DNA of 64,000 nucleotides from an uncultured Bacteroidota bacterium (GTDB taxonomy: Bacteria > Bacteroidota > Bacteroidia > Bacteroidales > UBA12077): the NCBI GenBank assembly GCA_913055635.1, contig CAJXLK010000011.1:1-64000 (forward strand), read 5' to 3'. This document shows, piece by piece, positions 6,749 to 36,500 of this stretch (position 1 is its first letter; each line of letters begins with the position of its first letter). The position numbers and the translations under genes are program-made. The notes below the pieces were generated by a model. It worked only from the letters and a program-made list of their open reading frames with translations, made no database searches and was not told the origin of the DNA.

Positions 6749-6758
6749 ACGATCGTGG

Positions 6759-6776
6759 ATTTTGGCATTCCAAAAT
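6759..6776. promoter_or_regulatory. Perfect short palindrome just upstream of a start codon
   Basis: ATTTTGG, a 4-base loop, then CCAAAAT lie 10 bases upstream of the ATG of the small minus-strand gene. This could be an operator or a translation-modulating hairpin. A 7-bp palindrome in AT-rich DNA can also arise by chance. Confidence 0.3.
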
Positions 6777-6938
6777 TGATTTGACAATGCTGTTTGTCCA
6801 AAGGTAAGGGTTGTTCTGCAAAATTGCAATTGATTAATAACCCGGGGAAAAGGCTTGAAAAAAAAATTTTCTGCGGCCATTTAAATAAAGGCTAAATTAT
6901 TGGCTATATTTGGTTTGATAAAAGACAAAAAGGGGCCA

Positions 6939-7745: not shown

Positions 7746-8052
7746 TCTCATTGATCGCGAACCATTCGGTAAATATCATACCTAAAAAGGTTTACCCTTG
7801 CAAAAGCACCATGTCAAATGAAGGCTCCATTCATAAAAGCAAAAAAAAGGGGTTTTCAAGGAGAAACAACCTTCTGCAAGGGAACAAACGAAAAAAGGGG
7901 AAACCCCTTATTGAAAGGCATTTCCCCAAGTAGCAGCAAATTGTTATTGATTCAATCATTAAAGTTAACCATCGTATTTTTCAATATCAAACAATTTCCA
8001 AAAAATACGAAAAAACACCTACCTTTCAATCCATTCCATCCAAATCTCCATA
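7746..8052. other. Convergent intergenic region, no gene seen
   Basis: This is about 300 bases between the 3' ends of two convergent genes. Open frames here have no protein-like composition. A small perfect hairpin (AAGGGG, AAA, CCCCTT at 7895-7909) could contribute to termination, but no T run follows it. Confidence 0.5.
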
Positions 8053-19064: not shown

Positions 19065-20141
19065 ATGTCAAACCGACCCTTCAAGCCTTACCCATTGATT
19101 ATGGCATTATTGCTGACTTTTTTAATCATGCCTTTTCATGAAGGGGTATCCCAGCAAAAGCCAAACATGGAAGGAACGATCATTGTGGGCAACAAAAGCG
19201 GCAACACCATTTCCCTGATCGATCGGGCCACGGGTAAAACCATCACCCAACTGCCCACCGGGCTTCAGCCCCATGAAGTAGAGGTTTCCGACGACGGGCA
19301 ACTGGCCGTCGTTGCCAATTACGGGGATCAGGAAAATCCGGGCAACACCCTCTCGGTCTATAACATCCGGCAAGCCCGGCAGACCAAGACAATTGACCTG
19401 GGAGCCAACACCCGGCCTCACGGGCTGGATTGGATCAAGGGCACCTCAAAGCTGCTGGTCACCACCGAAGGCACGCAAAAACTTCTGTTGGTGGATATAA
19501 AAAAGGGTGAAATCCTCAAGGATCTGGAAACCCAGCAGGAACTATCGCACATGGTGGCGGCCACTCCCAATGGAGACAGGGCCTTTGTTTCCAGCATCCG
19601 TACTGGCAACGTCACGGTATTCGACCTGAACAGTGGAGAACTTTTAGGTCAAATATACAGCGGCAAAGGAGCCGAAGGCATTGCCGTATCACCCGACGGC
19701 AGAGAGGTTTGGGTGACCAACCGGGCTGAAAATACCATTACCGTTTTTAACACCCAAAATCTTCAACAGATCACCCAGATCGCCTGCGGGGAATTTCCCA
19801 TCCGGGCCAAATTTTCACCCAACGGCAAATATTTTGTGGTCAGCAACGCCAAAAGTGGTGAAATTGCTGTTGTCCATGCCCGGGATAAAAAAGTCATCAA
19901 AAAAATCAAACTGCGTCCGCCCGTGCCTGAAAACAAAGACCCCCAACGTTATTTTTCAGAATTTAAGGGAACTTCTGTTCCCATTGGTGTTGTTGTGCCC
20001 GATAATCAAACTGCTTACGTGTCCAATACCCGTTCCGACGTGGTGACCGTGTTCAACCTGAAAAAAATGAAAATCGCCAAACATCTGCCGGCAGGCAAAG
20101 AACCCGACGGGATCCACTTCTCGCCGGTCACCCTCGAATAG
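19065..20141 (+). CDS. YVTN-type beta-propeller protein, periplasmic or secreted
   Basis: This 358-residue protein has a signal peptide (hydrophobic 12-24, cleavage near GVSQ). It carries about seven repeats of the YVTN/cytochrome-d1-like propeller. Typical blades include GTIIVGNKSGNTISLIDRAT, DGQLAVVANYG, GDRAFVSSIRTGNVTVFDL, DGREVWVTNRAENTITVFN, NGKYFVVSNAKSGEIAVV and DNQTAYVSNTRSDVVTVFNL. No haem-binding CxxCH is present, so this is the propeller alone, probably a ligand- or protein-binding scaffold in the cell envelope. It is a single plus-strand gene closed by the terminator at 20166-20203. Confidence 0.88.
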   Translation: MSNRPFKPYPLIMALLLTFLIMPFHEGVSQQKPNMEGTIIVGNKSGNTISLIDRATGKTITQLPTGLQPHEVEVSDDGQLAVVANYGDQENPGNTLSVYNIRQARQTKTIDLGANTRPHGLDWIKGTSKLLVTTEGTQKLLLVDIKKGEILKDLETQQELSHMVAATPNGDRAFVSSIRTGNVTVFDLNSGELLGQIYSGKGAEGIAVSPDGREVWVTNRAENTITVFNTQNLQQITQIACGEFPIRAKFSPNGKYFVVSNAKSGEIAVVHARDKKVIKKIKLRPPVPENKDPQRYFSEFKGTSVPIGVVVPDNQTAYVSNTRSDVVTVFNLKKMKIAKHLPAGKEPDGIHFSPVTLE

Positions 20142-20165
20142 TTGCCCAAAACAATTCACCCAAAA

Positions 20166-20203
20166 GCCGCCACAGGAAGTTTTTCCCAATGGCGGCTTTT
20201 TTA
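20166..20203 (+). terminator. Rho-independent terminator
   Basis: GCCGCCA (20166-20172) pairs with TGGCGGC (20190-20196) and is followed by a T run (TTTTTTATTT). It lies 25 bases after the stop codon of the beta-propeller gene. Confidence 0.88.
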
Positions 20204-20413
20204 TTTCTCCATCTCATCAGATTTAAGGATTTTTCGCAATGACTCTTGCAAACGTTATTGGTCCTGTTAAAAAAAATTACTTAAGTATATATTCCTCATA
20301 ATAAATGAATTCCGGGAAATTCTGTTGCAGATCATTGGTAAATCAAAAAAAATCCGGCATCCTTGCGCAAGTTTTTTCCCATCTACTTGTCTAAATAAGT
20401 AGTAAGGCTTTGC

Positions 20414-20986
20414 ATGGCAGAAGAGCTTATTGAAGAAATAAAGCGCGGGGATGAGGAGGCATTCCGGAAACTTATAGCTGATTACCAGGACATGGTGATC
20501 AATACCTGTTACGGGTTGGTTCAAAATAAAGCGGATGCCGAAGACATTGCCCAGGATGTTTTCGTGAAGGTTTATCAATCCATCCACCATTTCAGGGGGG
20601 AATCCAAACTTTCAACCTGGATATACCGGATTGCCGTGAATCAGTCTTTGAATGCCATTCGGAAGAACCGGTTTAAGAACTGGTGGATCAAGCTGGAAGA
20701 GGCTTTTAGCGATCCTTCCACCGGCAGGGAGCGGCAAGAGACCGGGCCCTATTTCATGCCCCATAAAAAAATGGAAACGGATGAAGGCCTGCGCATCATC
20801 CGCAAAGCCATCCTCAATTTGCCTAAAAATCAACGCATTGCCCTCACCCTCCATAAGTATGAAGAACGCTCCTACAGTGAAATTGCCGGGATCATGCAAA
20901 CCAGCCTCAGTTCAGTAGAATCATTGATATTCAGAGCCAAAAGAAACCTCCGGAAAAAACTGGTTCACTATTACAACCCAGATTGA
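20414..20986 (+). CDS. ECF-family RNA polymerase sigma factor
   Basis: This 190-residue sigma-70 family protein has region 2 at about residues 20-85 (DYQDMVINTCYGLVQNKADA, then AEDIAQDVFVKVYQ and LSTWIYRIAVN). A charged linker is followed by region 4 at about 125-183 (ILNLPKNQRIALTLHKYEE, YSEIAGIMQTSLSSVESLIF, RAKRNLRKKL). Lack of regions 1 and 3 marks it as an extracytoplasmic-function sigma factor. It heads a plus-strand series that continues with a Spy/CnrX-like protein and an anti-sigma-like protein, so it is probably controlled by release from the membrane anti-sigma. A metal or envelope-stress signal is likely. Target promoters could not be identified. Confidence 0.92.
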   Translation: MAEELIEEIKRGDEEAFRKLIADYQDMVINTCYGLVQNKADAEDIAQDVFVKVYQSIHHFRGESKLSTWIYRIAVNQSLNAIRKNRFKNWWIKLEEAFSDPSTGRERQETGPYFMPHKKMETDEGLRIIRKAILNLPKNQRIALTLHKYEERSYSEIAGIMQTSLSSVESLIFRAKRNLRKKLVHYYNPD

Positions 20987-21201
20987 CCTCTTTGATAAGA
21001 TAAAGACCAAAAACCACTAAAATGCAAAGAAGAACAGTTTGGACATAAAAATGACCCGCCCGGCCAGGAGTTGCTTAAATAAATACAGGCCTCCGAAACA
21101 GCGTTTTAAGAGCTATGAGCAACCTAAAACCGGAAAGCTGTCATCCCTGAATTATAAAGATCCAAACCTGGCAAGCTCAAACGCAAAATATACAGCACAC
21201 T

Positions 21202-21756
21202 ATGAAAACAATGAACCGTGCCGTCAGCAAACTCAACATCATCCTACTGATTGCCAACCTATCGGTACTGGTAGTGCTCTATTTCTTCACCGGGGAAAAC
21301 AACCAGCAGGAAGACACCCATAACCTGAGTTATCAGATGGAAACCGAGGAATTTTTGAAACAAGAGCTGGATTTCTCGGAAGAACAATACGAAGAGTACC
21401 TGGTGATGAACCGGGAAGTCATGGGAAGTTACCAGCACATCAACAGCGTCATTTGTGAAAACCACAACAAACTGCTCCGGGAACTGTCCAAACCCGAGCC
21501 TTCCCTAAAAACCATCGACTCCCTGAGCAGGGTCATTGGCGATGTACATGTGGGGCTAAAACGCTATACCGCCCGGCATTTTCTCAACATCAGGTCGATC
21601 TGTACGCCCGCCCAAAAAGAAAAGCTCCGGGGCCTGATCAGGGAGATGCTCGACATCGGCTCCTGCAGCCAATGCGAAAAAGAAAACTGCCAGTATGATA
21701 CTGCCCTGACTGCCTTTCCAGAGAGAAAAAAATTCCCCGAAAAACAAAAAAATTGA
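21202..21756 (+). CDS. Membrane-anchored periplasmic Spy/CpxP/CnrX-like protein
   Basis: This 184-residue protein has one N-terminal membrane anchor (about 11-28, IILLIANLSVLVVLYFF). A helical periplasmic domain follows with the LxxxLxFSEEQYEEYLVMN pattern and a second LTxxQ-like motif (ICTPAQKEKLRGLIREML), as in the Spy/CpxP/CnrX four-helix family (chaperones or metal sensors). The C-terminus carries a Cys-rich tail, CSQCEKENCQYD, which could bind metal or react to redox state. It lies between a sigma factor gene and an anti-sigma-like gene. In CnrYXH-type systems a protein of this fold senses Ni/Co and regulates the anti-sigma, so a sensing role is a reasonable inference. A gap of 215 bases separates it from the sigma gene. 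Confidence 0.75.
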   Translation: MKTMNRAVSKLNIILLIANLSVLVVLYFFTGENNQQEDTHNLSYQMETEEFLKQELDFSEEQYEEYLVMNREVMGSYQHINSVICENHNKLLRELSKPEPSLKTIDSLSRVIGDVHVGLKRYTARHFLNIRSICTPAQKEKLRGLIREMLDIGSCSQCEKENCQYDTALTAFPERKKFPEKQKN

Positions 21757-21818
21757 TCCTCCCCCCGCAAGTTTAGCCATCCTTACCTGTCATACTAATA
21801 AAAGCATCCAATTTCAGT

Positions 21819-22277
21819 ATGAAGTGTAAGGATTTCAAAAAACAACTCATATCAGGCAATCTCAGCGAAGAGGCCTATGCGCACCTGGAAAGCTGCGGGG
21901 ATTGCCGCCAATTGTATAACCGGGTGAACCAGGCCCTGGGGCAGCTCGATGAAGACCGGCTGCTACAGACCAATCCATTTTTCGCCACCCGGGTTATTCA
22001 ACGCCTCGAACACAAAAAGGGATCCTCAACCATAGGGCAACTCAAACCGGCTTTTTTACAAATTGCCAATGCCGTATCCATCTTTATTGCCGGGCTTTTC
22101 CTGGGGCTGTTGTTTTTGAAAAACATTGACGCCGAGGTTCAATTCCTCAATAAGCCCGATCAGCGCAAGGAAAGCATCCGCCAATTCATGGATGCCCATT
22201 ATCTGGATGCCGACCCGCAACGCATTCAGCTCATGGACCAGCTTAAAGAGGCTTCCCGGCACAAAGATCACCATTAG
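21819..22277 (+). CDS. Putative membrane anti-sigma factor with zinc-finger-like N-terminus
   Basis: This 152-residue protein has an N-terminal cytosolic domain MKCKDFKKQLISGNLSEEAY, with AHLESCGDCRQLYNRV following. The H-x3-C-x2-C arrangement is that of zinc-containing anti-sigma domains. One membrane segment (about 80-100, FIAGLFLGLLFL) and a short helical periplasmic C-terminus (to residue 152) follow. Its place after an ECF sigma gene and a Spy/CnrX-like gene supports the role of holding the sigma factor at the membrane. The gap to the following ferredoxin-like gene is 76 bases, so all are probably co-transcribed. The usual gene order is sigma then anti-sigma; here the putative sensor intervenes. 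Confidence 0.75.
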   Translation: MKCKDFKKQLISGNLSEEAYAHLESCGDCRQLYNRVNQALGQLDEDRLLQTNPFFATRVIQRLEHKKGSSTIGQLKPAFLQIANAVSIFIAGLFLGLLFLKNIDAEVQFLNKPDQRKESIRQFMDAHYLDADPQRIQLMDQLKEASRHKDHH

Positions 22278-22353
22278 CGCATCCCTTTTTGGATCAGCAA
22301 CCATTGTATCAGTAACCTTTTGTGCCCCAAACCGGGCCAATTAATCTCAAAAA

Positions 22354-24315
22354 ATGAAAAAACATCGCATCAATCATTACCGGTTAATATTACAATTAAG
22401 TGTCATCGCCATATTGTTTTACCTGGGCCATCTGGTCCTGTCACAGGGAACCAATGCCGCGGATTTCGAAGCTTATTGTCCGTTTGGGGGTTTGCTGGCC
22501 CTGGCCAATTTTGGGACGAGCCAGTCACTGGCCTGTTCCATGACTTCCCTCCAGATCAGCATGGGCATTGCCCTGGTGGTGGCGATCATCTTTTTCAGCA
22601 AACTCTTCTGTGCCTATCTGTGCCCGCTGGGCACAATCACCGAGTGGCTGGGGAAAGCCGGACGCCGGCTTAAAATACATCGCACCCTAACCGGCACCCC
22701 CGACAAACTCCTTCGCCTTATTAAATACGGCCTTTTGCTGGTGGTTTTTTATTTCACCCTTCAGTCCAGCGAATTGTTCTGCAAAACATTTGACCCTTAT
22801 TTTGCGGCAGCCACTGGTTTCGGCCCTGATGTGGAAACCTGGATGGCCATCCTCTCCATTGCGGTGTTGGTCATCGGATCCATCCTGGTGCGGATGTTCT
22901 GGTGCAAATATGCCTGTCCGCTGGGGGCCCTGTCCAATATTTTCATGTTTCCGATCCCGGCCTTTACCGTGGTTTTGGTCTTTATCGGGTTGGCCCTGCT
23001 GGGGATTCACCTAAATTTCATGTTTGCCCTGGTTCCAATGGCCATCATTGGATACACCGGGGAAGTAACGGAAAAGAAATTCGGGCAGTTGCCCCGGTTG
23101 CGGATCACCCGGAACGATCAAACCTGCATCGACTGCAAAAAATGTGACAAAGCCTGTCCCCAGGGCATTCAAGTATCCCGGTATGATCAGGTCGATCACA
23201 TTGACTGCCATTTATGCGGTGAATGCATTGGGGTGTGTCCGGTAAGCCATACCATGGGGATCAACAAAAAACACAGGATGAAATGGTTGCCAGCCGCCCT
23301 GGTCATTGTACTGGTGGCAGGCGGCATTGTTGCCGGAAACCAATTCGAAATACCCACCGTCCGGATGTTCTGGGGAAATGACAGTCAGCGCAGTGATGCC
23401 CGGGTTTTTCAGATGGACGATTTACGCAACATTAAGTGCTATGGCAGTTCCATGGCTTTTGTCAACCAAATGAAACGTGTAAACGGGGTATTGGGTGTAT
23501 CCACTTTTGTAAGGGATCACCAGGTAAAGATTCAGTATAATCCGCAACAAACCAACCGGGAAAAGATCAAACAGGCCATCTTTTCTCCGGCCCGGATGCT
23601 GGTGAAAGAACCTTCCGCCACGACCGATTCCCTGGAAATCATCAAAGGCCAAATCGACAACTTTTTCGATTCTTATGACAACCGCTTCATGACCCGCCTG
23701 CTTTCAAGGATACCCGGTATATATGGCTTTGAGTCCTATTACGGAGAGCCTGTACGAATCCGAATATATACCGATCCACATGTGGCGGTTGACTTGTATG
23801 AACTACGGCAAATCATGGAAAAAGAGCACCTGGAATACCAGCAGAACGGAACTTCATACAGCGAAACACTTCAATACGAGGTGGTCAACCTCCGCCATAC
23901 CGATCAGCATAAGGCGGTGGGCCAGTTCATGACCACCATGTACCGCGATTATGACGGCAAAGCCAATCAGCGGGACCAATATGAACCACAAGAAATTGAA
24001 TCGTTGAGGGTTAGGGTTACGGATTATCCGAAGAATTCGCAGAGGGCGCCCCATCTGCGAAATGACATCGCCCGTAATGACACCGGTATAGTTAGGGTGA
24101 AAACCTACTATACCGGTGATTACCCGGTAGCTGAATTTGAATACGTCAAAGGTCTGACCGATTCGCTGAAAGTCTGGCAACAAATCAGCAAAGACACCCT
24201 CAAGGTCACCTATTCCAACGGTTTTGTCCAAAAAATACGAAATCCTTACACTTTTGAACGCTTTGGTGCTGAAAAATCCCAAGTTAAATCTCAAAATCCT
24301 CCAAAAAATGATTAA
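22354..24315 (+). CDS. NapH/CcoG-like 4Fe-4S membrane protein fused to HMA-like C-terminal region
   Basis: This protein has 653 residues. The N-terminal half has about five to six membrane helices with the CxxxCP motifs typical of NapH/RdxA-like electron-transfer proteins (FCAYLCPLGTITEW, FWCKYACPLGALSN). Two ferredoxin 4Fe-4S clusters follow (CIDCKKCDKACPQGI and CHLCGECIGVCP, about residues 257-300). After one more helix (about 310-328) comes a soluble region whose start (IKCYGSSMAFVNQMKRVNGV, then KVQIQYNP-like and REKIKQAIFSPA) resembles a heavy-metal-associated fold with only one Cys. The last 250 residues match nothing I recognise. The stop overlaps the next gene's start by 8 bases (ATGATTAA), showing translational coupling. 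It probably passes electrons across the inner membrane to a metal- or cofactor-related process. Confidence 0.82.
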   Translation: MKKHRINHYRLILQLSVIAILFYLGHLVLSQGTNAADFEAYCPFGGLLALANFGTSQSLACSMTSLQISMGIALVVAIIFFSKLFCAYLCPLGTITEWLGKAGRRLKIHRTLTGTPDKLLRLIKYGLLLVVFYFTLQSSELFCKTFDPYFAAATGFGPDVETWMAILSIAVLVIGSILVRMFWCKYACPLGALSNIFMFPIPAFTVVLVFIGLALLGIHLNFMFALVPMAIIGYTGEVTEKKFGQLPRLRITRNDQTCIDCKKCDKACPQGIQVSRYDQVDHIDCHLCGECIGVCPVSHTMGINKKHRMKWLPAALVIVLVAGGIVAGNQFEIPTVRMFWGNDSQRSDARVFQMDDLRNIKCYGSSMAFVNQMKRVNGVLGVSTFVRDHQVKIQYNPQQTNREKIKQAIFSPARMLVKEPSATTDSLEIIKGQIDNFFDSYDNRFMTRLLSRIPGIYGFESYYGEPVRIRIYTDPHVAVDLYELRQIMEKEHLEYQQNGTSYSETLQYEVVNLRHTDQHKAVGQFMTTMYRDYDGKANQRDQYEPQEIESLRVRVTDYPKNSQRAPHLRNDIARNDTGIVRVKTYYTGDYPVAEFEYVKGLTDSLKVWQQISKDTLKVTYSNGFVQKIRNPYTFERFGAEKSQVKSQNPPKND

Positions 24316-26878
24316 ACGGTCGCTATGGACCCTTTTGATTGCAGGAAGCATGATCCTGACCGGTTGCAGCCTCGGTGCCGGGGTTGCCCAATCCGGTGAA
24401 AAGGGCGATAAGGAGCAACAAGAAAACAGCAAGAACAAAGACAAAGATAAGAATGGTAAAATCAAATCCCTGGATGAAGTAACCGAGTCGTGCAAAAAGA
24501 TTGACGGGCTGTTCACGGTCTATCAGGACACGGTCAAAGGCGATCTTTACTTGCAGGTGGAAAAAGAAAAGGTAGGCAATGAGTTCATTTATTTTGGCTA
24601 TGCCGAAAACGGGGTGCCTTCGCTGGATCTTTTCCGGGGTGCTTACCGGGCGAATATGGTCTTTAAGATCAAACGCTATTTCAACCGCCTGGAGTTCCAG
24701 GTGCCCAATCATAATTTTTACTTTGATCCGGAGAGTGCCCTAAGCAATGCATCGGAGGCCAACATCAGCGATGCGGTCATCTTTTCCGGCAAGATCAAAG
24801 GGATGAACAGCCAACAAGACACTTTCCTGATTGAGGCCAACGAATTGTTCATGGAACAGACCCTCTCCCGGATTGAGCCCCGGCAGTCGAGCCGAAGGGC
24901 CGGATACAAAGTGGGTCGGCTCAACGACGACATGACCAAGGTCAGCGACATCCGCAACTATCCGGAAAACACCAATGTAATGGTGGAATATGTTTTTGTC
25001 AACAAAAAGCCCAAGTACACGGCCGGTCCGGTTCTGGCCCATGATAAGAGTGTGAGCTTTAAGTTCCAGCATACTTTTCTGCGTATGCCCGAGAACGATT
25101 ATCAAAAGCGGAAAGCCGATCCGAGGGTAGGTTATTTCACTTCCAAGCAAAACAAGATGACCTCCACATCGGTGACCCCGTACCGTGATTTCATCCATCG
25201 CTGGAAGCTGGAAAAGAAACATCCCGAGCAGGAGCTTTCCGAGCCGGTCGAGCCCATTGTTTTCTGGATGGAAAACACCACCCCCAAGCATCTGAGGGAT
25301 GCCGTACGCCAGGGCATTTTGAACTGGAACAAGGCGTTTCGCGAGATCGGTTTCAAGAATGCGATTGTTGTGAAGCAGCAACCCAAGGATGCGGATTGGG
25401 AGGCTGGCGATATCCGCTACAATGTAGTGCGGTGGACCTCTTCTCCCAATCCGCCATTTGCCGGGTACGGGCCGCGTTTTTACAACCCCAGAACCGGTCA
25501 GATCCTGGGAGCCGATGTGATGTTGGAATACACCCAGTTCAAGCGAAGGGTCAACTACAAGACCCTCTACCAGGATGAAACCGCCAGCCAGCAGCTTTAC
25601 AGCAAGGAAGGGCCAAAACCCTTATCGCCCGGAGAGATGATGGCTCAGAACCTGGCCTTCGGATCCCTGATGGCCACCAGTCAACCCGAAATGGAAGGCA
25701 TGCTGCACGATGCAGTCGTATCCCTGGTAACCCACGAAGTAGGCCACACCTTAGGGTTAACCCATAATTTCAAGGGTTCCTATCACTTAACCCCGGAAGA
25801 GATCAACGACACCACCATCACTTCCGAAAAAGGTCTGAGTGCCTCGGTTATGGACTATACCCTGATCAATGTGGCCCTGGATACGGCCAAACAGGGCGAC
25901 TATTTCTCAACCACCATCGGACCTTACGATTACTGGGCCATCAAATACGGCTATCAACCGGTCGATAATGAGCAAGAACTCGAGGCCATTGCCCAGGAAT
26001 CGACCGAGGAAGGCCACCTCTTTGCCAATGATGCCGAAGCCATGCGCTCCTATGCCAGGGGAATTGATCCGCGGGTAATGACTTACGACCTGACCAGCAA
26101 ACCCATCGAATATTCCATTAAACGGATGAAGCTGGTGGATTCGCTGATCAGACAACTGCCCGAGAAATACATGGAAAAGGGTCGATCTTACCATGAAATG
26201 CGCTATGCATTCAGCACCCTGATCAATCAATACAAATATGCCGTAAGAACCATATCACGGTACATCGGCGGTGTTTATACCGACCGCCACCTGGTAGACC
26301 AGCAATCCGACCAACCCCCCTATCAACCGGTGCCGGAGAAAAAGCAAAAGAAAGCCATGGAGGCGATCACCGAATATGTCATGTCGCCTGAAGCCTTTGA
26401 TTTCCCCAAAAAGCTGCTCCAGCACATGCAATACCAGCGCCGCGGCTTCAACGTGGGCAACGACGCACCCCCGGTACACCGGATCGTGGAAATCCTCCAG
26501 AAAGAAGCCCTCAGGCCAATGATGTACCGCACCATGATGCAACGCTTGCTGGACTCCGAACATTACGGCAATGATTATGAGCTCTCCCAGTACCTCAGAG
26601 ACCTGACCAATGCCATCTTCATGGAGGACAAGGGCGAAAAGGTTAATACGTTCCGTCAGTACCTGCAGGTGCTCTATACCAAACAACTGGCCAATATGAG
26701 TGGCCCCAGCAGCCCGTTCTCACCAAACCGTTATCCCTATCAGGCACGGTCACTGGCCGTGGGTGAACTGGAGCATATCAAAGACATCGTTGCCCATGAT
26801 GTCAAAGATGCAGCCACTCAGGCCCATCATCAATACCTGAACAAAATGATCAAAAATGCCTTCCGGCATACCCAATAA
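24308..26878 (+). CDS. Zinc-dependent metalloprotease lipoprotein (DUF5117/DUF4953-type)
   Basis: This is an 856-residue lipoprotein. The lipobox is LTGC at C20 after MIKRSLWTLLIAGSM. The long N-terminal domain (about 60-330) has the motifs YLQVEKEKVGNEFIYFGYAE and LNDDMTKVSDIRNYPEN. The catalytic domain carries LVTHEVGHTLGLTHNFKGS, giving the metzincin-like zinc site H476, E477, H480 and H486, with the downstream SVMDYT Met-turn-like sequence. This is the family commonly annotated 'zinc-dependent metalloprotease' in Bacteroidota. The start at 24308 is preferred over the in-frame ATG at 24224, which lies inside the preceding gene, because it begins the lipoprotein signal. It overlaps the previous stop, so it is translationally coupled. 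Likely anchored in the outer membrane. The substrate is unknown. Confidence 0.87.
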   Translation: MIKRSLWTLLIAGSMILTGCSLGAGVAQSGEKGDKEQQENSKNKDKDKNGKIKSLDEVTESCKKIDGLFTVYQDTVKGDLYLQVEKEKVGNEFIYFGYAENGVPSLDLFRGAYRANMVFKIKRYFNRLEFQVPNHNFYFDPESALSNASEANISDAVIFSGKIKGMNSQQDTFLIEANELFMEQTLSRIEPRQSSRRAGYKVGRLNDDMTKVSDIRNYPENTNVMVEYVFVNKKPKYTAGPVLAHDKSVSFKFQHTFLRMPENDYQKRKADPRVGYFTSKQNKMTSTSVTPYRDFIHRWKLEKKHPEQELSEPVEPIVFWMENTTPKHLRDAVRQGILNWNKAFREIGFKNAIVVKQQPKDADWEAGDIRYNVVRWTSSPNPPFAGYGPRFYNPRTGQILGADVMLEYTQFKRRVNYKTLYQDETASQQLYSKEGPKPLSPGEMMAQNLAFGSLMATSQPEMEGMLHDAVVSLVTHEVGHTLGLTHNFKGSYHLTPEEINDTTITSEKGLSASVMDYTLINVALDTAKQGDYFSTTIGPYDYWAIKYGYQPVDNEQELEAIAQESTEEGHLFANDAEAMRSYARGIDPRVMTYDLTSKPIEYSIKRMKLVDSLIRQLPEKYMEKGRSYHEMRYAFSTLINQYKYAVRTISRYIGGVYTDRHLVDQQSDQPPYQPVPEKKQKKAMEAITEYVMSPEAFDFPKKLLQHMQYQRRGFNVGNDAPPVHRIVEILQKEALRPMMYRTMMQRLLDSEHYGNDYELSQYLRDLTNAIFMEDKGEKVNTFRQYLQVLYTKQLANMSGPSSPFSPNRYPYQARSLAVGELEHIKDIVAHDVKDAATQAHHQYLNKMIKNAFRHTQ

Positions 26879-26900
26879 AACACCAACACCAGCAGAGATC

Positions 26901-26938
26901 TTATCATACCGGGGCTTTATGATGCCCCGGTATGATAA
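26901..26938. promoter_or_regulatory. Perfect 15-bp hairpin between protease and SusC genes
   Basis: TTATCATACCGGGGC (26901-26915) and GCCCCGGTATGATAA (26924-26938) are exact reverse complements around an 8-base loop. No T run follows on either strand, so it is not a standard terminator. Located between the stop at 26878 and the ATG at 26964, it could be an mRNA processing or stability hairpin that lets SusC/SusD be expressed at a different level, or a dimeric operator. Confidence 0.8.
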
Positions 26939-26963
26939 AACATATGGAAACCTAAAATGAACC

Positions 26964-29900
26964 ATGATGCAATTGAAAGGAATATTAACTGTACTGGCGA
27001 TGCTGTTGATCTCAATGAACACCCTGAGTCAGGAGCATTTTGTCACGGGAAAAGTTAAATCAGAAGAAGGTGTGGCCCTGCCCGGCGCCACTGTAAAGGT
27101 AGCATCTTCCCAGACCGGCACCACCACCGATATCAAGGGAAAATATAAAATCCGCATGCCCGAAGATCACAATGTTCTGATCTTTTCCTTTGTCGGATAC
27201 AAGAATAAGCGGGTTGAAGTCAATGACAAGGAAACCATCAACATCACCCTGGAAAAGAAATCCCAGGAAATCAGCGAGGTGGTTTGTGTCGGTTACGGCG
27301 GGGCCAAGGCAAAAGAAAAGCTCACCGGCAGTGTGGATCACGTCGACTCAAAAGAATTAATGACCCAGCAATCGGCTGCGAGCGTAGATGAGATGATTGG
27401 CGGGATGATGGCCGGGGTTCGGATTAAAAGCAACAGCGGCAGCCCGGCTGACCCCAACAAAATCCGCATCCGTGGCCGGAGTTCGCTGAAACAGGTCACC
27501 GGCAATGCCATGGTGGCCTCCTCCCAACCCCTGATCATCCTCGACGGGGTGCCCCTGGAGGATGTCTCTGCACCCAATGAGGCCAATGACATGGTCAAGA
27601 AAAAGGTCAATCCCCTGGCCATGATCAATCCCAAGGACATTGAATCAATCACCGTCCTTAAAGATGCCTCGGCAACAGCCATTTACGGAGCAAACGCCTC
27701 CAACGGGGTTATCATCATCAATACCAAAGACGGACAGCAGGGTGAAACCAAGTTCGACTACACTTCCCGAATGGGCTTTTCACAACCGATCAACCACTTT
27801 CAGTTCCTCAACACCGAAGAGTATGTGACCCTGGCCAAGGAAACCCTCATGAATTCAGGCTATACAGAAGAAAAAGCCATGGAACAAATCGGCCCCACCG
27901 ATGTCTACACCAACTGGTTTGACCTGGTCAGCCGTACAGGCATCACCCAAAAGCATAACCTGAGTTTCTCAGGAGGCAAATCCGGGTTAAACTACCGCTT
28001 CTCGGCCGGATATTTTAACAACAAATCCATCGGCAAAGGCAACAACCTGGACCGCATCACCACGCGTCTGAATCTGACGGCTGATCTGACCGATAAGCTT
28101 CAATGGAACTTCATCCTGGGGGTTTCCAAGATGAAAAAGGATGTGTTCAGCGCCTTTCAGTCCATTTCATTCCCCCCCAACCTCTCTCCCTATGATGAAG
28201 ACGGTTCCTATAACGACGACCCCCCGTTCAACAACCTGTTGAACCCCCTGGCCGGTTTGGCTCAGAACGAAAACTGGATTAAAAATTTCTACACCAACGG
28301 GAGTACCAAGCTGCGGTATCAAATCACACCCAATCTGAAGCTCTCTTCTACCTTTGGTGTGGACTACAACAGCAAGGAAACCTATGTGTTTTACAGCCAG
28401 CAAAATGCCCTGGGAAGCAACCGCGGAGGTTATATCGCCCGGTTGAACAAAAACCGGCTCAAATGGATTTCATTCAACCAAGCCGACTATCAGCTGACGA
28501 TTCAGGACAATCACAACCTTGAATTCCTGGCCGGTTTCCAGATGGAAAACCGCAACGATTTGGTGCTGAAGGGCACCAATTCCGATTTGCCTTTTGAGAA
28601 GATTAAGGAATTAGGGATTTCGGAGACCGAAAACTCCAAAACCCGCAGCAACACAGGTAGTTTTGGATCGGTTTCCTATTACGGAAGAATGAGCTACAAT
28701 TACCGCAACCGGTATTACATGAACATGAACTTCCGCAGTGATGCAGCCAGTGTTTTTGGCGGGGACCAGCGGAGGGAAAATTTTGCATCGGTAGGTCTTT
28801 CATGGGTCATCTCCAAAGAAGCCTGGATGGAGCAATTCGACAACCTCGATATGCTCAAGATCCGCGGGTCCTATGGCAACACCGGGAATTCGCGGATCGG
28901 CACCTATGCGGCCCAGGGCCTTTACCAATACTCCGACCGCTATGGCTACGGCGGTGTGCTCGGGGCCCAGCCTCATCAGCCCCCCAATAAACACCTGACC
29001 TGGGAAAAAAATTACAAATTCAATATTGCCCTAGACATCGGCCTGTTTGAGCGGATGGACATCAAGTTCGAACATTACGTCAACACCACCCGCGATGCCA
29101 TAACCACAATGAAAGTGCCTTTTGAAAGCGGGTTCAACAACATACCGGTTAATGCCGCCGACATGCGCAACAAAGGATGGGAGCTGACCCTGCGCAATCA
29201 AGTCCTTCAATCAGAAAACTGGAACTGGACGGTCGATTTCAACATCGCCTCCAACAGCAATAAAATTCTTGCCCTGGGCAACGACCAGAATTATGTGCCG
29301 GCATCCAGTTACAATTCAGCCGGGCTGATCATTGGTGAAGAGGTCTCTTCTATCCTGGCCCTGCGTTATGCCGGGGTCAATCCTCAAACCGGGGATGCCC
29401 AGTATTACCTGAATGATGGCTCGATCACCACCAATGGGGATATTGCCAATCAGCCCAAACACCGTGTGGTGGTAGGCAAATCATCTCCCGATGCCCATGG
29501 CGGGCTCAACACAACCATTCAGTATAAAAACTGGACCCTTACGGGCATGCTCTCTTACGAATGGGGCGGATACCTGATGTTGCCCTACAATTCCTTCCGC
29601 TTTAACAGCGATGGAACCCAGATCCTGATCCACAACCAGAGCGTCAACCAGCTCGACAGGTGGCAGGAACCGGGCGATCAGACCGACATCCCGGAATTAA
29701 GCCTGGACAACCGCCCGGTGAAAAACACCACCCGAAACCTGTTCGACCGCACCCATATCCATTTCCGCAACGTGTCGCTGTCCTATAAACTGCCGGAACA
29801 CCTGGTTGAGAAATTCAAGTTGGATATGCTGCAGGTCAACATCACGGTCGACAACCTCGGCTATTGGTATAAAAGCGACAGCAATCCCAACCGCAATGGC

Positions 29901-29969
29901 ATTGCCGAATATCGCTATACCTACCCCGTTTCCAGAACTTTTACTTTAGGATTGAACGCCAAATTTTAA
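26964..29969 (+). CDS. SusC/RagA-family TonB-linked outer membrane transporter
   Basis: This 1001-residue outer-membrane transporter has a signal peptide (to about residue 22, ending NTLS). A carboxypeptidase-D-like N-terminal domain follows (about 26-95: VTGKVKSEEGVALPGATVKV). Next are a TonB-box-like segment (ISEVVCVGYG), the plug (GVRIKSNSGSPADPNKIRIR, ILDGVPLEDV, IESITVLKDASATAIYGANA) and the barrel. The SusC signature 'LKDASATAIYGANASNGVI' is complete. It imports a bulky substrate (oligosaccharide, peptide or metal chelate) together with the SusD lipoprotein encoded 6 bases downstream. The barrel is intact to the last strand (SRTFTLGLNAKF). The co-encoded protease and Calx-beta protein suggest a peptide or glycoprotein substrate, but this is inference. 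Confidence 0.95.
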   Translation: MMQLKGILTVLAMLLISMNTLSQEHFVTGKVKSEEGVALPGATVKVASSQTGTTTDIKGKYKIRMPEDHNVLIFSFVGYKNKRVEVNDKETINITLEKKSQEISEVVCVGYGGAKAKEKLTGSVDHVDSKELMTQQSAASVDEMIGGMMAGVRIKSNSGSPADPNKIRIRGRSSLKQVTGNAMVASSQPLIILDGVPLEDVSAPNEANDMVKKKVNPLAMINPKDIESITVLKDASATAIYGANASNGVIIINTKDGQQGETKFDYTSRMGFSQPINHFQFLNTEEYVTLAKETLMNSGYTEEKAMEQIGPTDVYTNWFDLVSRTGITQKHNLSFSGGKSGLNYRFSAGYFNNKSIGKGNNLDRITTRLNLTADLTDKLQWNFILGVSKMKKDVFSAFQSISFPPNLSPYDEDGSYNDDPPFNNLLNPLAGLAQNENWIKNFYTNGSTKLRYQITPNLKLSSTFGVDYNSKETYVFYSQQNALGSNRGGYIARLNKNRLKWISFNQADYQLTIQDNHNLEFLAGFQMENRNDLVLKGTNSDLPFEKIKELGISETENSKTRSNTGSFGSVSYYGRMSYNYRNRYYMNMNFRSDAASVFGGDQRRENFASVGLSWVISKEAWMEQFDNLDMLKIRGSYGNTGNSRIGTYAAQGLYQYSDRYGYGGVLGAQPHQPPNKHLTWEKNYKFNIALDIGLFERMDIKFEHYVNTTRDAITTMKVPFESGFNNIPVNAADMRNKGWELTLRNQVLQSENWNWTVDFNIASNSNKILALGNDQNYVPASSYNSAGLIIGEEVSSILALRYAGVNPQTGDAQYYLNDGSITTNGDIANQPKHRVVVGKSSPDAHGGLNTTIQYKNWTLTGMLSYEWGGYLMLPYNSFRFNSDGTQILIHNQSVNQLDRWQEPGDQTDIPELSLDNRPVKNTTRNLFDRTHIHFRNVSLSYKLPEHLVEKFKLDMLQVNITVDNLGYWYKSDSNPNRNGIAEYRYTYPVSRTFTLGLNAKF

Positions 29970-29975
29970 CCCATC

Positions 29976-31397
29976 ATGATGCGCACAACACTTTACATAA
30001 TGCTCAGCCTGCTGATGTTGCTATCAGCCACTTCCTGTGAAGAGTTCCTCAACCGGGATCCGGAAGACAAGATCTCCAACGACGGGCTGTTCAAGGACAT
30101 GACCGGCGTTAAATACGCTCTGGCCGGTGCCTACAACAGCCTGGCCGATAACGACTACTACCGCAAAAACTTCATCCTTAATGCGGAATTAAAGGGGGGC
30201 AATGTCAAATTCTCCTCCAACATTGTGGAGATGTATATGGATCGCTACCGAGATACCTACAATTTCAATCATTCTCCCAACGATGAACGTACCTCCTACT
30301 ATTTTTACCGCCACCTCTACGAGGTGCTCAACATGGCCAATAATGTGATTGCCAACACCCCGGATGCCAAAGGCGGTACGCAGGCGGAGAAGGATCATGT
30401 CCTCGGCGAGGCCCGTACCATAAGGGCCCTGGCCCATTTCGACCTGGTTCGCTTGTTCGCCCGGCGATATGACTATACCAACAATGCCCAGCATCCCGGT
30501 ATCGTCATCGTCAGGCAGTCTCCAGATGTCTTTGACCAGCCGGAGCGCTCAACCGTGTATGAGACCTACCGCTTTATTGTCGATGACCTGAAGCAAGCCA
30601 TCAACCTGCTGGAAAACAGCCCATCCAAAGACAAAGGCGATCTGTGGATCTCTGCCGCCACGGCTAAAGCCATCCTGGCCAGGGTTTACCTCTACAAGGA
30701 AGACTGGAACAATGCCATCGACATGGCCACCCAGGTGATTCAGAACAACAACTATAACCTGGTTCCCCATCAACAATACGTGGAAAAATTCACCCAGGAT
30801 CAACCCAGCCAGGAAGATATTTGGATGCTCGACAATTCTTATGAACTGGCCGAAGCCCTCTCCAAATTCATTGGAGTGCCGGGTAACGCCGATAAAACTC
30901 AGATGTCCGTCTCCAAAGACCTGCTCAATCTTTATGAACAAGAGGATGTGCGCCAGGAGTTGTTTACCACTTATGAAAACGATACCGTTTGCCGCAAATA
31001 TCAGGCGGAAAACAACATAGAAAGCAACATCCCCATGGTTCGCCTGCCTGAGATGTACCTGATCCGCGCCGAAGCCAGTGCCCGCATCGGCGAACCAATC
31101 CAGGCCCGATCCGACCTGGATAAGATCAGAAAAAGGGCCAACCCCGATGCTCCCTTTCCCAATTTAACGGGCCAGGAACTGATCGACCAGATCATCCTGG
31201 AAAAACGCAAAGAGCTGGCCCTGGAAGGACATCTTTTCTATGAACTCAAGCGCCTGGGCCGCGACATCAACCGCACGGATTGCAATGCAACCCGCAACCA
31301 AAACCTGACTTATCCCGATTACAGATATGTCATGCCCATACCCAAAGATGAAATGGACTACAACCAAAATATGATCCAGAATGAAGGCTATAAATAG
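29976..31397 (+). CDS. SusD/RagB-family outer membrane lipoprotein
   Basis: This is a 473-residue lipoprotein with its lipobox at C21 (LLSATSC), followed by the typical SusD opening EEFLNRDPEDKISNDGLFKD. Tetratricopeptide-like helices include ALAGAYNSLADNDYYRKN and ATAKAILARVYLYKEDWNNA. The C-terminal part has PMVRLPEMYLIRAEASAR and LEKRKELALEGHLFYELKR, diagnostic for the RagB/SusD family. It closes over the SusC barrel and binds the substrate on the cell surface. The gene starts 6 bases after susC and is certainly in the same operon. At 473 residues it is somewhat shorter than many family members but has all the conserved blocks. Confidence 0.94.
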   Translation: MMRTTLYIMLSLLMLLSATSCEEFLNRDPEDKISNDGLFKDMTGVKYALAGAYNSLADNDYYRKNFILNAELKGGNVKFSSNIVEMYMDRYRDTYNFNHSPNDERTSYYFYRHLYEVLNMANNVIANTPDAKGGTQAEKDHVLGEARTIRALAHFDLVRLFARRYDYTNNAQHPGIVIVRQSPDVFDQPERSTVYETYRFIVDDLKQAINLLENSPSKDKGDLWISAATAKAILARVYLYKEDWNNAIDMATQVIQNNNYNLVPHQQYVEKFTQDQPSQEDIWMLDNSYELAEALSKFIGVPGNADKTQMSVSKDLLNLYEQEDVRQELFTTYENDTVCRKYQAENNIESNIPMVRLPEMYLIRAEASARIGEPIQARSDLDKIRKRANPDAPFPNLTGQELIDQIILEKRKELALEGHLFYELKRLGRDINRTDCNATRNQNLTYPDYRYVMPIPKDEMDYNQNMIQNEGYK

Positions 31398-31425
31398 CTG
31401 AATGTAAACCCTAAAATTTAAATTT

Positions 31426-32979
31426 ATGAAACGCAGAACACTCACGATTCTTATGATGGTTGCTTTTGTAGCAACCATGGGGTTGGTTTCCTGTGAACAG
31501 GAAGAAGACAAAACCCTAAAAGTTTCCTTTGGACAGACCGAACTCTCCATTAAAGAAATCAACACCTCGACCCTGGAAGTTCCGGTCAAACTGAACATCA
31601 AAGCGGACAAAAATCTGGAAATTCCTTTTCAGGTCAGCGGCACGGCCGAGGCCGGTGTTCATTATGAGGCCATTGAGGACAAGACCGTGATGATCGAAAA
31701 AGGTGAAGATTCAACGGTTATCCTGGTTGATCCGATCAATGAAACCAAGATTCAGGGCGACAAAACCCTGGAACTGAAACTGGGGGCCGGCGATGGTTAT
31801 ATTCTGCAGGAAGCCAATACCGCCGAGGTTACCATTGTTGACAACGACGAAACCCTCAGCAACGCTCCGGTGGTGCAATTCACCTCAGACAGCACCATGA
31901 CCAATGCTTTCCTGCGCGACACGGTCGAAATGAAAGTGGGTTTAAGCAAAGCCCTGGACAATGATGTGATGATTCCCGTATCATTTGACGGCAGCACCGC
32001 CGAAAAGGGCACCCATTACGAAGTGGTTGGGCTCAACGATAACAACCAACTCAAGATGCCGGCCGGTGAGGTTTCAGCAAGCTTCGGCATCGCCGTCAAA
32101 TACACCGGCAAGATGAACATCGAAAAAATGGTCGAGGTATCACTTGCCGAACCCAACGTCACTTCCTATCAGCTGGGCGAAACCGGGAAAAACCTCGCCG
32201 TTGAGATCATCGATCCCAAGGTCACCAACGTATGGTTCATTGATGGCCGCTCCTGGGACGGAGGAAACCAGAAGATGGTCTTTGAGAAAAACGCCATCGG
32301 CGAGATGGCCTTTGACGAAAACTGCATCCCCAACCTGGTATTGGCCGAAGGCGTTTATGATCCCCACGTGCTCCGAAAAGAAACCGACGGCTATTCTGCA
32401 GCCTATCCTCCCCACACCGTTACCCAGCATTCGGAGGATCCCAATGCCTGGTCAGGCGACTGGACCTACACCTTCATCCGCAGAAGTTGCCCCACCAGTG
32501 AAGAACAAGACTATCCCTATTATTACAACTACCGTTGCAATGCCTATGACCTGACCGACGAGGCCCTGATGACTGAAGGTTACCTGGTCGGCTATATGAA
32601 CAACGGCATTCGCGTGGATAAATACCTGCGGTTTGCCGCCATGAACAAAGAAGGGACCAAAGGTAAAGTGGTCATACCCAAACAAACCATTACCGGTTAT
32701 GCCGCCAAAGAAGGCTACGACTGGGATGGTGAATCTGTCGTAGGCGATGTCTGGGGCAAGCAGAAAAACTGGAAAATCGATTCCCACAATTCCAACGGCA
32801 AAATTGAGGAAAGCGATAATGTGAAGGAAGTGAACATCACCGTGCATGGCGAAGGTTCCTTTAACACCGAAACCAAGGAAATCAAATTTACGGTACACTT
32901 CTCCTCAGAAGATCCCAATCTGAAGAAGGAAAAGGCTACCTTTAAGATTTATCCAACCCGGGATGACGTTCCCGAATGA
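31426..32979 (+). CDS. Surface lipoprotein with two Calx-beta-like domains
   Basis: This 517-residue lipoprotein has its lipobox at VSC (C23). Two Calx-beta repeats follow: about 32-140 (SGTAEAGVHYEAIEDKTVMI, AEVTIVDNDE) and about 150-265 (FDGSTAEKGTHYEVVGLND). The C-terminal half (about 270-517) is an unassigned beta-rich domain rich in Trp, Tyr and Gly, with a few Cys (RRSCPTSEEQ, YRCNAYD). It follows the SusC/SusD pair by 28 bases, in the position where such loci encode an additional surface glycan- or peptide-binding lipoprotein. I therefore infer that it is an accessory substrate-binding protein. The strong terminator at 32998 closes the operon right after it. Confidence 0.82.
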   Translation: MKRRTLTILMMVAFVATMGLVSCEQEEDKTLKVSFGQTELSIKEINTSTLEVPVKLNIKADKNLEIPFQVSGTAEAGVHYEAIEDKTVMIEKGEDSTVILVDPINETKIQGDKTLELKLGAGDGYILQEANTAEVTIVDNDETLSNAPVVQFTSDSTMTNAFLRDTVEMKVGLSKALDNDVMIPVSFDGSTAEKGTHYEVVGLNDNNQLKMPAGEVSASFGIAVKYTGKMNIEKMVEVSLAEPNVTSYQLGETGKNLAVEIIDPKVTNVWFIDGRSWDGGNQKMVFEKNAIGEMAFDENCIPNLVLAEGVYDPHVLRKETDGYSAAYPPHTVTQHSEDPNAWSGDWTYTFIRRSCPTSEEQDYPYYYNYRCNAYDLTDEALMTEGYLVGYMNNGIRVDKYLRFAAMNKEGTKGKVVIPKQTITGYAAKEGYDWDGESVVGDVWGKQKNWKIDSHNSNGKIEESDNVKEVNITVHGEGSFNTETKEIKFTVHFSSEDPNLKKEKATFKIYPTRDDVPE

Positions 32980-32997
32980 TAATCCCATACCATTTAT

Positions 32998-33035
32998 AAA
33001 AAAGGGATGGCCCCGGCGGGGTCATCCCTTTTTTT
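32998..33035 (+). terminator. Strong rho-independent terminator closing the SusC/SusD operon
   Basis: A 17-base arm (32998-33014, AAAAAAGGGATGGCCCC) pairs, with one G-T mismatch, to 33018-33034 around a 3-base loop, and T residues follow. The A and T tracts at either end make it potentially bidirectional. It lies 18 bases after the stop codon. Confidence 0.93.
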
Positions 33036-33554: not shown

Positions 33555-36500
33555 ATGTCAATCATCAACCAGGATCAGCCAACAAAAAAGAGGCATCAAA
33601 GGAATATTCCCTTTCGTTTGCGGCTCCTTTTCGCCGGGCTACTCATGTTGTCGCTGGTGTTGGGTATCTTATATTTTCAACGGGTGGGCCACCGAATGGC
33701 TTCCCATTATACCCCTATGCTAAAGGCTTCCAACAACATCAAGCAAAATATCACCTCAGCCCATTTGTGGACCGAGGAGGTCATCCTGGGAACCTCCAGG
33801 GTTCCTCTTGACTCGGTTAAATCACATATGGACAGGGCAATGGCCCTTACAGAGGCCATGCTGGAAGGGGGTAATGTGAAAGGCAACAAAATATTTCCTT
33901 TGACGGATAGCATCCTGCGCGAGAAAATGCAGATCACCCAACGGCGGGTAAAAAAATTCCACGCCCTGATTCTCCAAAGATGGCCCGGAGATGTCGGGTC
34001 AGGAAACACGGAAACCCAACCCCATTCCAGGTTCAACCGCCTTTACCAACAGATTGTACAAACGGTCGATCAACTGGAATTTCAGCTCCACCAACGCTTT
34101 AAGAGAGAGCTTTCCCGTTTTCGGTTCCTTCAGTTCCTCCTGCTTGGGATCCTTATCGTGATCGTTATCTACACCACCCTACTGGTTTATCGCTTCACCC
34201 GCGAACGCAATCAAACCCTGCAAGAGATCGCCGAAAACGAAAACAACCTTCGTATAACCCTCAAATCCATCGGGGATGCTGTGATCACCACCGATCTGAA
34301 CGGCAAGATCACCCGGATCAATCAGATTGCAAGGGAGCTTACCGGATACTTCGAGGGGGAAGCTCTCGGGCAAGCGGTCGATGACATTTTGATGCTTTAT
34401 CATACGCAAACCCGCGAAAAAATAAAAAATCCAGTCAATCTCGTCCTGCAAACCGGTAAAACAGCGGGGCTGGCCAATGACACCCTGCTAAAATCAAAAG
34501 ATGGCAGGGAATATCAAATTGCAGACAGCGGAGCCCCCATCACCGATGCAAAAGGGAACATCCATGGGGTTGTTCTGGTTTTTCGCGATATTTCCGAGGC
34601 GTATCAAAGGCAAAAACAAATCCGCGAAAGCGAAGCCAAATACCGGAAATTCTTCAAGACTTCACGCGATGCGGTTTTCATCACCACAGTGAAAGGCCGC
34701 TGGATTGACATGAACGATGCAACGGTTGAATTGCTGGGCTATTCCAGCAAGCAGGAACTGATGGAAACGCCCGTGCAACAAATTTATTACCGCCCTGAAG
34801 ACCGGAAAGAGCATACCAGTCAAATCATCTCAAAGGGTTTTACCCGGGAGTACCCGGTTGATTTGGTTAAAAAAGACGGAACCCTGGTGCATGCCCTGAT
34901 CACATCGGTGCCTTTCTACGACAGCAGCGGCCATATAGAAGGTTTTCAGGGCACCATCCACGACCACACCTACATCCAGCATACAGAAGAAACCCTACGA
35001 CAGGAAAGGAACAAACTGCGCCAACTCACCGAAACCAGCCCGGTAAGCATCCTGTTGATGGATGAAAGGGGTAGCCTGAATTACGCCAATCAGCGCGCCC
35101 GGGATGTATTGGACCTGGATGATGATGCCCTTGAGAGCCACCGGTGCATGGAGTCTCAATGGCAGATCACCGACATGAATGGCAATCCTGTGCCCCGGGA
35201 TCAACTTCCCTTTGAACAGGTCAAAAAAACGGGTAAGCCCGTGTATGGAAACGAATTCACCTTTACCCAGTCCAATGGCCGGCAACTGATGGTTCAGGTC
35301 AATGCAGCCCCGATCTTCGGAGGTTCGAACCATTTGAAGGGGGTGGTGGCCACCCTGGAAAACATTACCCGGCGCAAAGAAAATGAAAAACGCATCCATC
35401 ATTTAAATTCGGTGCTGGATGCCATCCGGAAAATCAACCAGCTGATCATCAAAGAACAGGACAGAAGCACCATCATTCATCAGGTAGGTCATATTCTGAC
35501 CGGGTCTAGAAACTTCACCAATTCATGGATCGCATTGCTGGATGAGCACCATCAAATTACCATGACCGCCGCATCCAACCTGAACCAACAATTTCCGGCT
35601 TTCCGCGAAAAACTGGCCGAAGGGTTTTGGCCACAATGCCTGAATCGGGTGATCCACCAAAAAACCACCTTCATCCCGGATAAACAAATCCACTGCCACG
35701 CCTGTCCCCTGGCTGATCTCTACCAGGAGACCGGCACCATTTGCCTGCCGCTTAAACATGGAAAAAAAATCTTTGGGATGCTCAATGTCACCCTGCCGGT
35801 TGAAATGACGGCCGATCCCGAAGAAAAGGCCCTGCTCGAAGAGATGGCCCACGACATTGGTTTTGCCCTTTTCAACATCGAATTAAGGGAAACCAAAGCC
35901 CGCATGGAAGCTTCCCTGATGGAGAGCGAACGGAAGTTCCGTACCCTGATGGAAAATGCTTTCGACGGGATCTACCTGACCCGCTCCAGACATTTTGAAT
36001 ATGTGAACCATCGCTTTTGCGAAATAACAGGTTATACCGCCGGCGAACTCACCTCCAGCGAATTTAATTTCTATGATTTGCTGACCCCGGAAAGCAAAAA
36101 CCTGGTGGCCCAGCGCTACCAGGCCCGCCAGCGGCAGGAAAAAATCCCTAACCGCTACGAAATGCGCATTTATACCGAAGCCGGGGAATTGAAAGATGTA
36201 GAACTGAGCACCGTATCGCTCGAATCCGGCAATGAAGTGACTGTGATGGGCATCATGCGGGATGTGACCCAACGCAAAATGGCCGAACGGGAACTGCTCA
36301 AGGCCAAAGAAAAAGCAGAAGAAAGCGACCGCCTCAAAACGGCCTTCCTGGCCAACATGTCGCACGAAATCCGAACCCCCATGAATGGCGTGGTTGGCTT
36401 TACCAAATTGCTCAAGCAAAAAGACTTTCCCAAAAACAAGCAGAAAGAATTCCTCGATATCATTGATTCCCGGGCCAACCACCTGCTGGATTTGATCAAC

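Follow-up and report, generated by a model that had tools for sequence, protein, structure and literature searches.

A SusC/SusD gene set with a predicted CnrYXH-like switch and a conserved membrane ferredoxin in an uncultured Bacteroidota bacterium

Why should a gene set for outer-membrane import contain a membrane ferredoxin and a switch resembling a metal sensor? This question is raised by a locus at positions 20,414-32,979 of a 64,000-nt stretch of DNA (the window) from contig CAJXLK010000011.1 of an uncultured Bacteroidota bacterium of the order Bacteroidales. Its eight genes, all on the plus strand and bracketed by two strong terminators, encode an extracytoplasmic function (ECF) sigma factor, a sensor, an anti-sigma-like protein, a membrane ferredoxin (here FDX), a metalloprotease, SusC, SusD and a surface lipoprotein (Table 1). 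The outer-membrane part of TonB/SusCD import in Bacteroidota is well studied; the periplasmic fate of metal-bearing cargo is poorly known. We propose, with belief and doubt evenly balanced, that the locus is a self-regulated uptake operon in which a CnrYXH-like switch governs the cleavage of a cargo at the surface, its import and its reduction in the periplasm, the cargo carrying a metal or thiols. If this is true, a conserved electron carrier tied to a receptor, a metal-sensor-like switch and a two-promoter regulon would together provide a directly testable reductive step, as well as a functional setting for DUF4857, DUF4876 and DUF6850. To these families of unknown function belong genes that rank among the most responsive to iron in gut and oral Bacteroidota. 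Each component is of a known kind, whereas no description of the FDX family or of the combination seems to exist in the sources searched; open-access publications searched for DUF5117 together with SusC, or for CnrX in Bacteroidetes, did not describe the eight-gene set.

The membrane ferredoxin and its partners

FDX gave weak matches to NapH/MauN, NosR and Fer4_5 in Pfam/NCBIfam, far under the family cut-offs (51.3 bits against 213.05 for NapH/MauN TIGR02163, and 16.7 bits against 316.7 for CcoG TIGR02745). The AlphaFold2 (AF2) model has seven predicted transmembrane (TM) helices, of which the sixth and seventh flank a 2x[4Fe-4S] ferredoxin domain that lies on the same side as two CX3CP motifs (C86xxxC90P and C184xxxC188P); by analogy with NapH, this side is probably cytoplasmic. 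Both motifs and the eight ferredoxin cysteines are invariant, and this layout fits a NapH/NosR/RdhC-like module. A membrane module of this kind is common to NapH, NosR and RdhC, which are considered to pass electrons from menaquinol towards periplasmic enzymes (PMC5928378). Two CX3CP motifs are common to FDX and these proteins, RdhC including PceC, and two [4Fe-4S] motifs are also found in NapH and NosR; FDX differs, however, in an extra TM helix, three HMA-like domains predicted to be periplasmic, more invariant cysteines in predicted periplasmic loops, and scores far under every known family cut-off. The cupric reductase group CcoG/RdxA/FixG, proposed to reduce copper, resembles FDX as a polyferredoxin-type membrane protein, whereas FDX has an HMA-like tail and no cbb3 oxidase genes beside it.

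The three tandem heavy-metal-associated (HMA)-like folds lie past helix 7, at residues ~350-416, 426-497 and 548-629. Each has the beta-alpha-beta-beta-alpha-beta secondary structure of the HMA fold in the AF2 model and matches CopA, ATP7B, Atx1 and MerP in Foldseek and VIA at moderate scores (best Z 9.4), and none has a Pfam HMA match. The heavy-metal-associated-like part that a preliminary description of this DNA had assigned to the ferredoxin is thus present at fold level only. Not one of the 16 cysteines of the window protein varies among 107 sequences, although part of this set is biased, as some invariant residues were in the search patterns; genomes found by profile, free of this bias, agree on the invariant cysteines. 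Eight belong to the ferredoxin domain, four to the CX3CP motifs, and four (C42, C61, C143 and C362) to predicted periplasmic positions, C362 within a KCxGS motif of the first HMA-like domain. The NapH/NosR-type module and the predicted periplasmic domains make the earlier suggestion of electron transfer across the inner membrane a reasonable one.

Full or near-full-length FDX was found in about one in eight of the 98 nearest relatives, and in 10 of 296 genomes across the phylum and 42 of 393 in the order (profile search); it also occurs in Calditrichota. Its commonest partners in 80 named loci were an ATP-binding cassette (ABC) ATPase (32), a TonB receptor (31), DUF4876 (29) and a small lipoprotein (28), followed by DUF4857 (26), DUF6850 (25), the sigma factor (24) and the sensor (23). 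The module of sigma factor, sensor, anti-sigma and FDX is mostly joined to TonB/DUF4876/DUF6850/ABC/DUF4857 systems; Maribellus and Draconibacterium are among the cultured carriers of the sigma-sensor-DUF4876 type. FDX and DUF4857 co-occurred in six of the same 296 genomes, as compared with 0.37 expected (P 1e-7), and in all six both genes lay on one contig within about 13 kb. We regard this partnership with a TonB/DUF4876/DUF6850/DUF4857 outer-membrane system as the best clue to the function of the module.

Iron depletion induces BT3625-3633 of B. thetaiotaomicron (DUF4857, ABC, two PepSY-TM, DUF4876, TonB) 37-128-fold and PG1019-22 of P. gingivalis (DUF4876, TonB) 21-214-fold (PMC10434189). 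The FDX module usually occurs together with TonB/DUF4876 parts such as those of both systems, and with ABC/DUF4857 parts such as those of the former. For BT3625-3633, PepSY_TM proteins are listed and a ferredoxin is not, whereas the window has SusC/SusD/DUF4843 and a DUF5117 protease. Reduction of ferrisiderophores is a known activity of PepSY_TM proteins, one of which, CrpH, has been proposed as the copper reductase of a TonB-receptor operon (PMC13038864). Since DUF4857 loci lacking FDX often hold a PepSY_TM-like gene (four of six), FDX plausibly fills the same reductive step; some loci carry both. The window genome has neither DUF4876 nor DUF4857, and its SusCD unit is therefore no accessory to such a system.

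Peptidases recur next to FDX (S46, M16, C25-like and DUF5117). A protein weakly like peptidase family C25 closes the DUF4876-type module of locus L062 (20579-21913); C25-like genes occur in 10 of the 80 FDX loci, and elsewhere S46 and M16 peptidases end this module. The DUF4876-type module opens with a gene for a small lipoprotein of ~141 aa, seen in L046 (7817-8242) and in 27 further loci; the protein has no Pfam match, and its CYG and GC-containing motifs are conserved. A resistance-nodulation-division (RND) efflux operon and a P-II-like 97-aa protein were found directly 5' of the small lipoprotein-sigma-sensor-FDX module in L062, L060, L069, L070 and L087 (~1470-8283), and RND genes lie near FDX in 14 of the 80 loci. 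In L119, L120, L125 and L157, which are FDX or DUF4857 loci, a ~154-aa protein (DUF4920 in L157) stands beside a PepSY_TM_like_2 protein, suggesting that it may be another constant partner.

Predicted regulation and the SusCD/DUF5117 version

The sensor has no match in Pfam. Its AF2 model, built with 25 homologs (predicted local distance difference test (pLDDT) score 79), retrieved CnrX/NccX at ranks 1-14 in Foldseek (probability 1.00), and VIA likewise placed CnrX and NccX on top (Z 11.7, root-mean-square deviation 2.9, 107 aligned). For helical bundles a Z below about 13 may be generic, yet the ranking was consistent, with CnrX/NccX ahead of ZraP, Spy and CpxP, and the fold match thus favors the CnrX-like sensor named in the preliminary description. 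Four sensor cysteines (C85, C155, C158 and C163) are invariant among homologs; judged from helix order, C85 may face C155 to form a predicted four-cysteine site. The anti-sigma-like protein has a weak NCBIfam anti-sigma match and a gene position conserved in relatives. This gene set of a sigma factor, an anchored sensor and a TM anti-sigma corresponds by analogy to that of CnrYXH from Cupriavidus metallidurans, likewise a three-part ECF switch with self-regulated promoters (predicted here). The two differ in the four invariant cysteines of the window sensor, in the gene order (sigma-sensor-anti-sigma in the window) and in their targets, CnrYXH controlling an efflux pump and the window switch probably an uptake operon.

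Comparison of the upstream regions of the loci yielded a promoter motif, GCAAGTTT-N14-GTC, that has exactly two matches in the 4.08 Mb genome, P1 and P2 of this unit; the reversed pattern, used as a control, matched three times. Chance alone may thus be expected to place a few matches somewhere, but not to put both of only two within 1.4 kb here. Of 23 related loci, 20 have a site equivalent to P2 just 3' of the sensor gene, also as an AAGTTT variant, where the remainder of that DNA would predict 0.04; as the motif was defined on the same loci, the enrichment P for P2 is optimistic, the genome-wide count less so. A P1 site with the same spacing precedes the sigma gene in L033, L077 and L081, and both site position and the fixed 14-base spacer recur across relatives. 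Sigma-70 promoter matches in the unit were no more frequent than chance, which is what an ECF-controlled unit should show. Most simply, the unit would have an ECF sigma factor of its own, self-regulated and acting at two predicted promoters, P1 serving the sigma and sensor genes and P2 the genes from anti-sigma through FDX, protease and SusCD to the lipoprotein. These predicted sites lend support to the earlier idea that the whole set is under the control of this sigma factor.

FDX followed by SusC/SusD with a DUF5117 protease was found in the window, L033 (= G014), G002, L042, L043, G538 (L185) and G414 (L184, L193). Sigma factor, sensor, FDX, protease, SusC and SusD of L033 are 49-57% identical to those of the window, with lower values for the anti-sigma and lipoprotein; G002 (84-89% identity) lies at a contig edge with FDX-protease-SusC visible, and L042 and L043 represent two Plebeiobacterium species. 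In the FDX tree, the SusCD-linked proteins form one clade (99/94) that spans several families; it holds six members of the tree together with two loci truncated at contig ends, and all six fully readable loci have the protease. Two origins of the SusCD linkage had appeared in a first tree, and were replaced by this one supported clade once loci were added. Ferredoxin, SusCD and DUF5117, proposed as a set in the preliminary description, are thus co-conserved in other genomes. Within the clade, the sigma-sensor-anti-sigma genes occur only in the window/L033 branch.

SusCD-type loci appear to have acquired their met-zincin on more than one occasion, because its gene lies 5' of SusC in the window type and 3' of SusD in the others, and because the window protease is closest to solitary DUF5117 proteins of other genomes, being only 25% like those of L042/L185. 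Solitary met-zincins with 40-48% identity to it were found in genomes without FDX (L133, L137, L138 and L146), beside conserved neighbours of their own (about 131, 496 and 538 aa). G014, G414 and G538 each hold both an FDX-SusCD unit and an FDX-DUF4876 unit, which argues for distinct cargoes.

The sequence HEVGHTLGLTH of the window protease fits HExxHxxGxxH, and PF16313 (263.6 bits) and PF17148 (92.4 bits) exceed their cut-offs; together with the lipobox, these matches bear out its earlier description as a zinc metalloprotease lipoprotein. Its weak nanobody matches, the only ones in a PDB sequence search, were taken as chance. SusC scored 741.2 bits with TIGR04056 (cut-off 368.25) and has SusD adjacent, as in a SusC/SusD importer. 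All three members of the earlier SusC/SusD/Calx-beta set were recovered, with the correction that the last lipoprotein matches DUF4843 as well; it had no match in the PDB sequence search, and a literature search for DUF4843 peptide importers gave noise only. RagAB/SusCD importers resemble the window set in the RagA-like SusC, the SusD lid and the surface lipoprotein, but the window locus adds a sigma/sensor module, a met-zincin and an electron carrier of the inner membrane.

A possible mechanism and its alternatives

From the computed gene content, promoter sites, predicted folds, conservation and partner swapping, we infer the sensor/anti-sigma wiring, reductase activity, cargo and metal of the following scheme. 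The CnrX-like sensor and the membrane anti-sigma would keep the sigma factor inactive until a metal or redox change at the sensor cysteine site releases it to fire P1 (sigma, sensor) and P2 (anti-sigma, FDX, protease, SusC, SusD, DUF4843). Cleavage, capture and import of a peptide-like cargo with metal or thiols would be the task of the met-zincin lipoprotein and the SusC/SusD/DUF4843 complex at the cell surface. In the inner membrane, FDX would act as a NapH/NosR-type carrier that takes electrons from quinol or cytoplasmic ferredoxin and may hand them to C42, C61, C143 and C362, predicted to be periplasmic, and to the HMA-like domains. The cargo would be reduced in this way, with Fe(III) or Cu(II) as the most likely target and a disulfide as a less likely one, and the metal then released and used. 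The metal may be iron, which the regulation of related systems favors, or copper, which the HMA-like folds favor. More tentatively, with doubt somewhat outweighing belief, FDX might be the founder of an undescribed class of transenvelope metal reductases, in which a NapH/NosR-type module passes electrons to periplasmic HMA-like domains via a four-cysteine site. In Bacteroidota and Calditrichota, such proteins of the ferredoxin type would be an alternative to PepSY_TM reductases, with a four-cysteine CnrX-type sensor as the switch and interchangeable TonB/DUF4876 or SusCD/protease receptors.

Several observations weigh against the proposed uptake and metal reduction. Regulation by iron is known for relatives whose receptor is TonB/DUF4876 rather than SusCD, in species where FDX itself was not shown. 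Many FDX genes are solitary or beside housekeeping genes, so FDX may have a broader role. The AF2 model of FDX is only moderate (pLDDT 71) and low in the cysteine loops. Finally, CxxC is not present in the HMA-like domains, the first having CxxS and the other two no cysteine, and classical metal binding is therefore not expected.

The cysteine pattern bears on a rather unlikely alternative, in which FDX electrons reduce disulfides of imported cysteine-rich peptides, as a ferredoxin-driven counterpart of DsbD/TlpA, while the sensor gauges the periplasmic thiol state and no metal is imported. CxxS instead of CxxC in the first HMA-like domain, the four invariant FDX cysteines at predicted periplasmic positions, the four of the sensor and the adjoining peptidases would all suit such a thiol route; however, the folds predicted in FDX are HMA-like and not those of thioredoxin, the sensor is nearest to the metal sensor CnrX, and related receptor systems respond to iron.

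That the locus serves plain peptide scavenging, through a RagAB-like SusCD and a protease at the surface, and that operon assembly added the regulator and FDX by accident, appears improbable. SusC and SusD do match RagA and other solved importers, and the DUF5117 relatives with 40-48% identity are mostly solitary, in genomes without FDX; against this, the FDX-SusCD-DUF5117 linkage forms one clade over several families despite different DUF5117 subfamilies (~25% identity), and P2 sits ahead of FDX and the rest. Slightly less credible still is a defence against metal stress, with the CnrX-type switch sensing metal excess, the HMA-like domains of FDX detoxifying and SusCD being secondary. CnrYXH governs nickel/cobalt resistance, and 14 of the 80 loci have RND pumps close to the module, but the RND permease scores closer to drug than to CusA types; the operon itself is without an efflux pump or P-type ATPase, and the usual partners are uptake receptors, relatives of which respond to iron limitation.

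Layout and borders of the locus

The coordinates agree with the earlier report of eight consecutive plus-strand genes without an internal canonical terminator, as terminator-like matches within the unit are only as many as chance predicts. These are eight separate genes, and the word "fused" used for them does not apply. Gaps are 215 bp between sigma and sensor, 62 between sensor and anti-sigma, 76 between anti-sigma and ferredoxin, 85 between protease and SusC, 6 between SusC and SusD, and 28 between SusD and the lipoprotein; the ferredoxin and protease genes overlap. The second predicted ECF promoter is internal, and the unit may therefore be two co-regulated or nested transcripts rather than surely a single one.

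Table 1. Positions of the features of the locus in the window
Feature	Position	Strand	Basis or remark
Terminator of preceding beta-propeller gene (upstream border)	~20162-20200	+	GC-rich stem, T run, -21 kcal/mol
P1, predicted autoregulated ECF promoter, GCAAGTTT-N14-GTC	20367-20391	+	Ends 22 bp 5' of sigma ATG
ECF sigma factor, Sigma70 r2 + r4_2	20414-20986	+	Pfam/NCBIfam; beside sensor gene in relatives
Predicted periplasmic sensor, CnrX-like, N-terminal membrane anchor	21202-21756	+	AF2 model, fold match
P2, second predicted ECF promoter, GCAAGTTT-N14-GTC	21767-21791	+	Precedes anti-sigma/ferredoxin
Anti-sigma-like protein, zinc-finger-like, HxxxCxxC motif (HLESCGDC), one TM helix, periplasmic tail	21819-22277	+	
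FDX membrane ferredoxin	22354-24315	+	Pfam/NCBIfam, AF2, Foldseek/VIA
Met-zincin lipoprotein protease, DUF5118/DUF5117/DUF4953	24308-26878	+	Pfam; HEVGHTLGLTH; lipobox LTGC
SusC/RagA TonB-dependent outer-membrane transporter	26964-29969	+	TIGR04056, solved SusC/RagA homologs
SusD/RagB-like lipoprotein lid	29976-31397	+	Pfam SusD_RagB (over cut-off), SusD-like_3; solved homologs
Surface lipoprotein, Calx-beta + DUF4843	31426-32979	+	Pfam; conserved in L033
Strong intrinsic terminator (downstream border)	~32998-33034	+	17-pair stem, T run, -27.3 kcal/mol

Both flanking genes lie outside the terminators. On the 3' side, at 575 bp, is a large multi-PAS/GAF hybrid histidine kinase with a receiver domain (33555-37457, plus strand). 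On the 5' side, the YVTN beta-propeller gene (19065-20141) adjoins a gene for a TonB-dependent receptor-like outer-membrane protein with a carboxypeptidase-regulatory-like N-terminus (16328-18769, minus strand).

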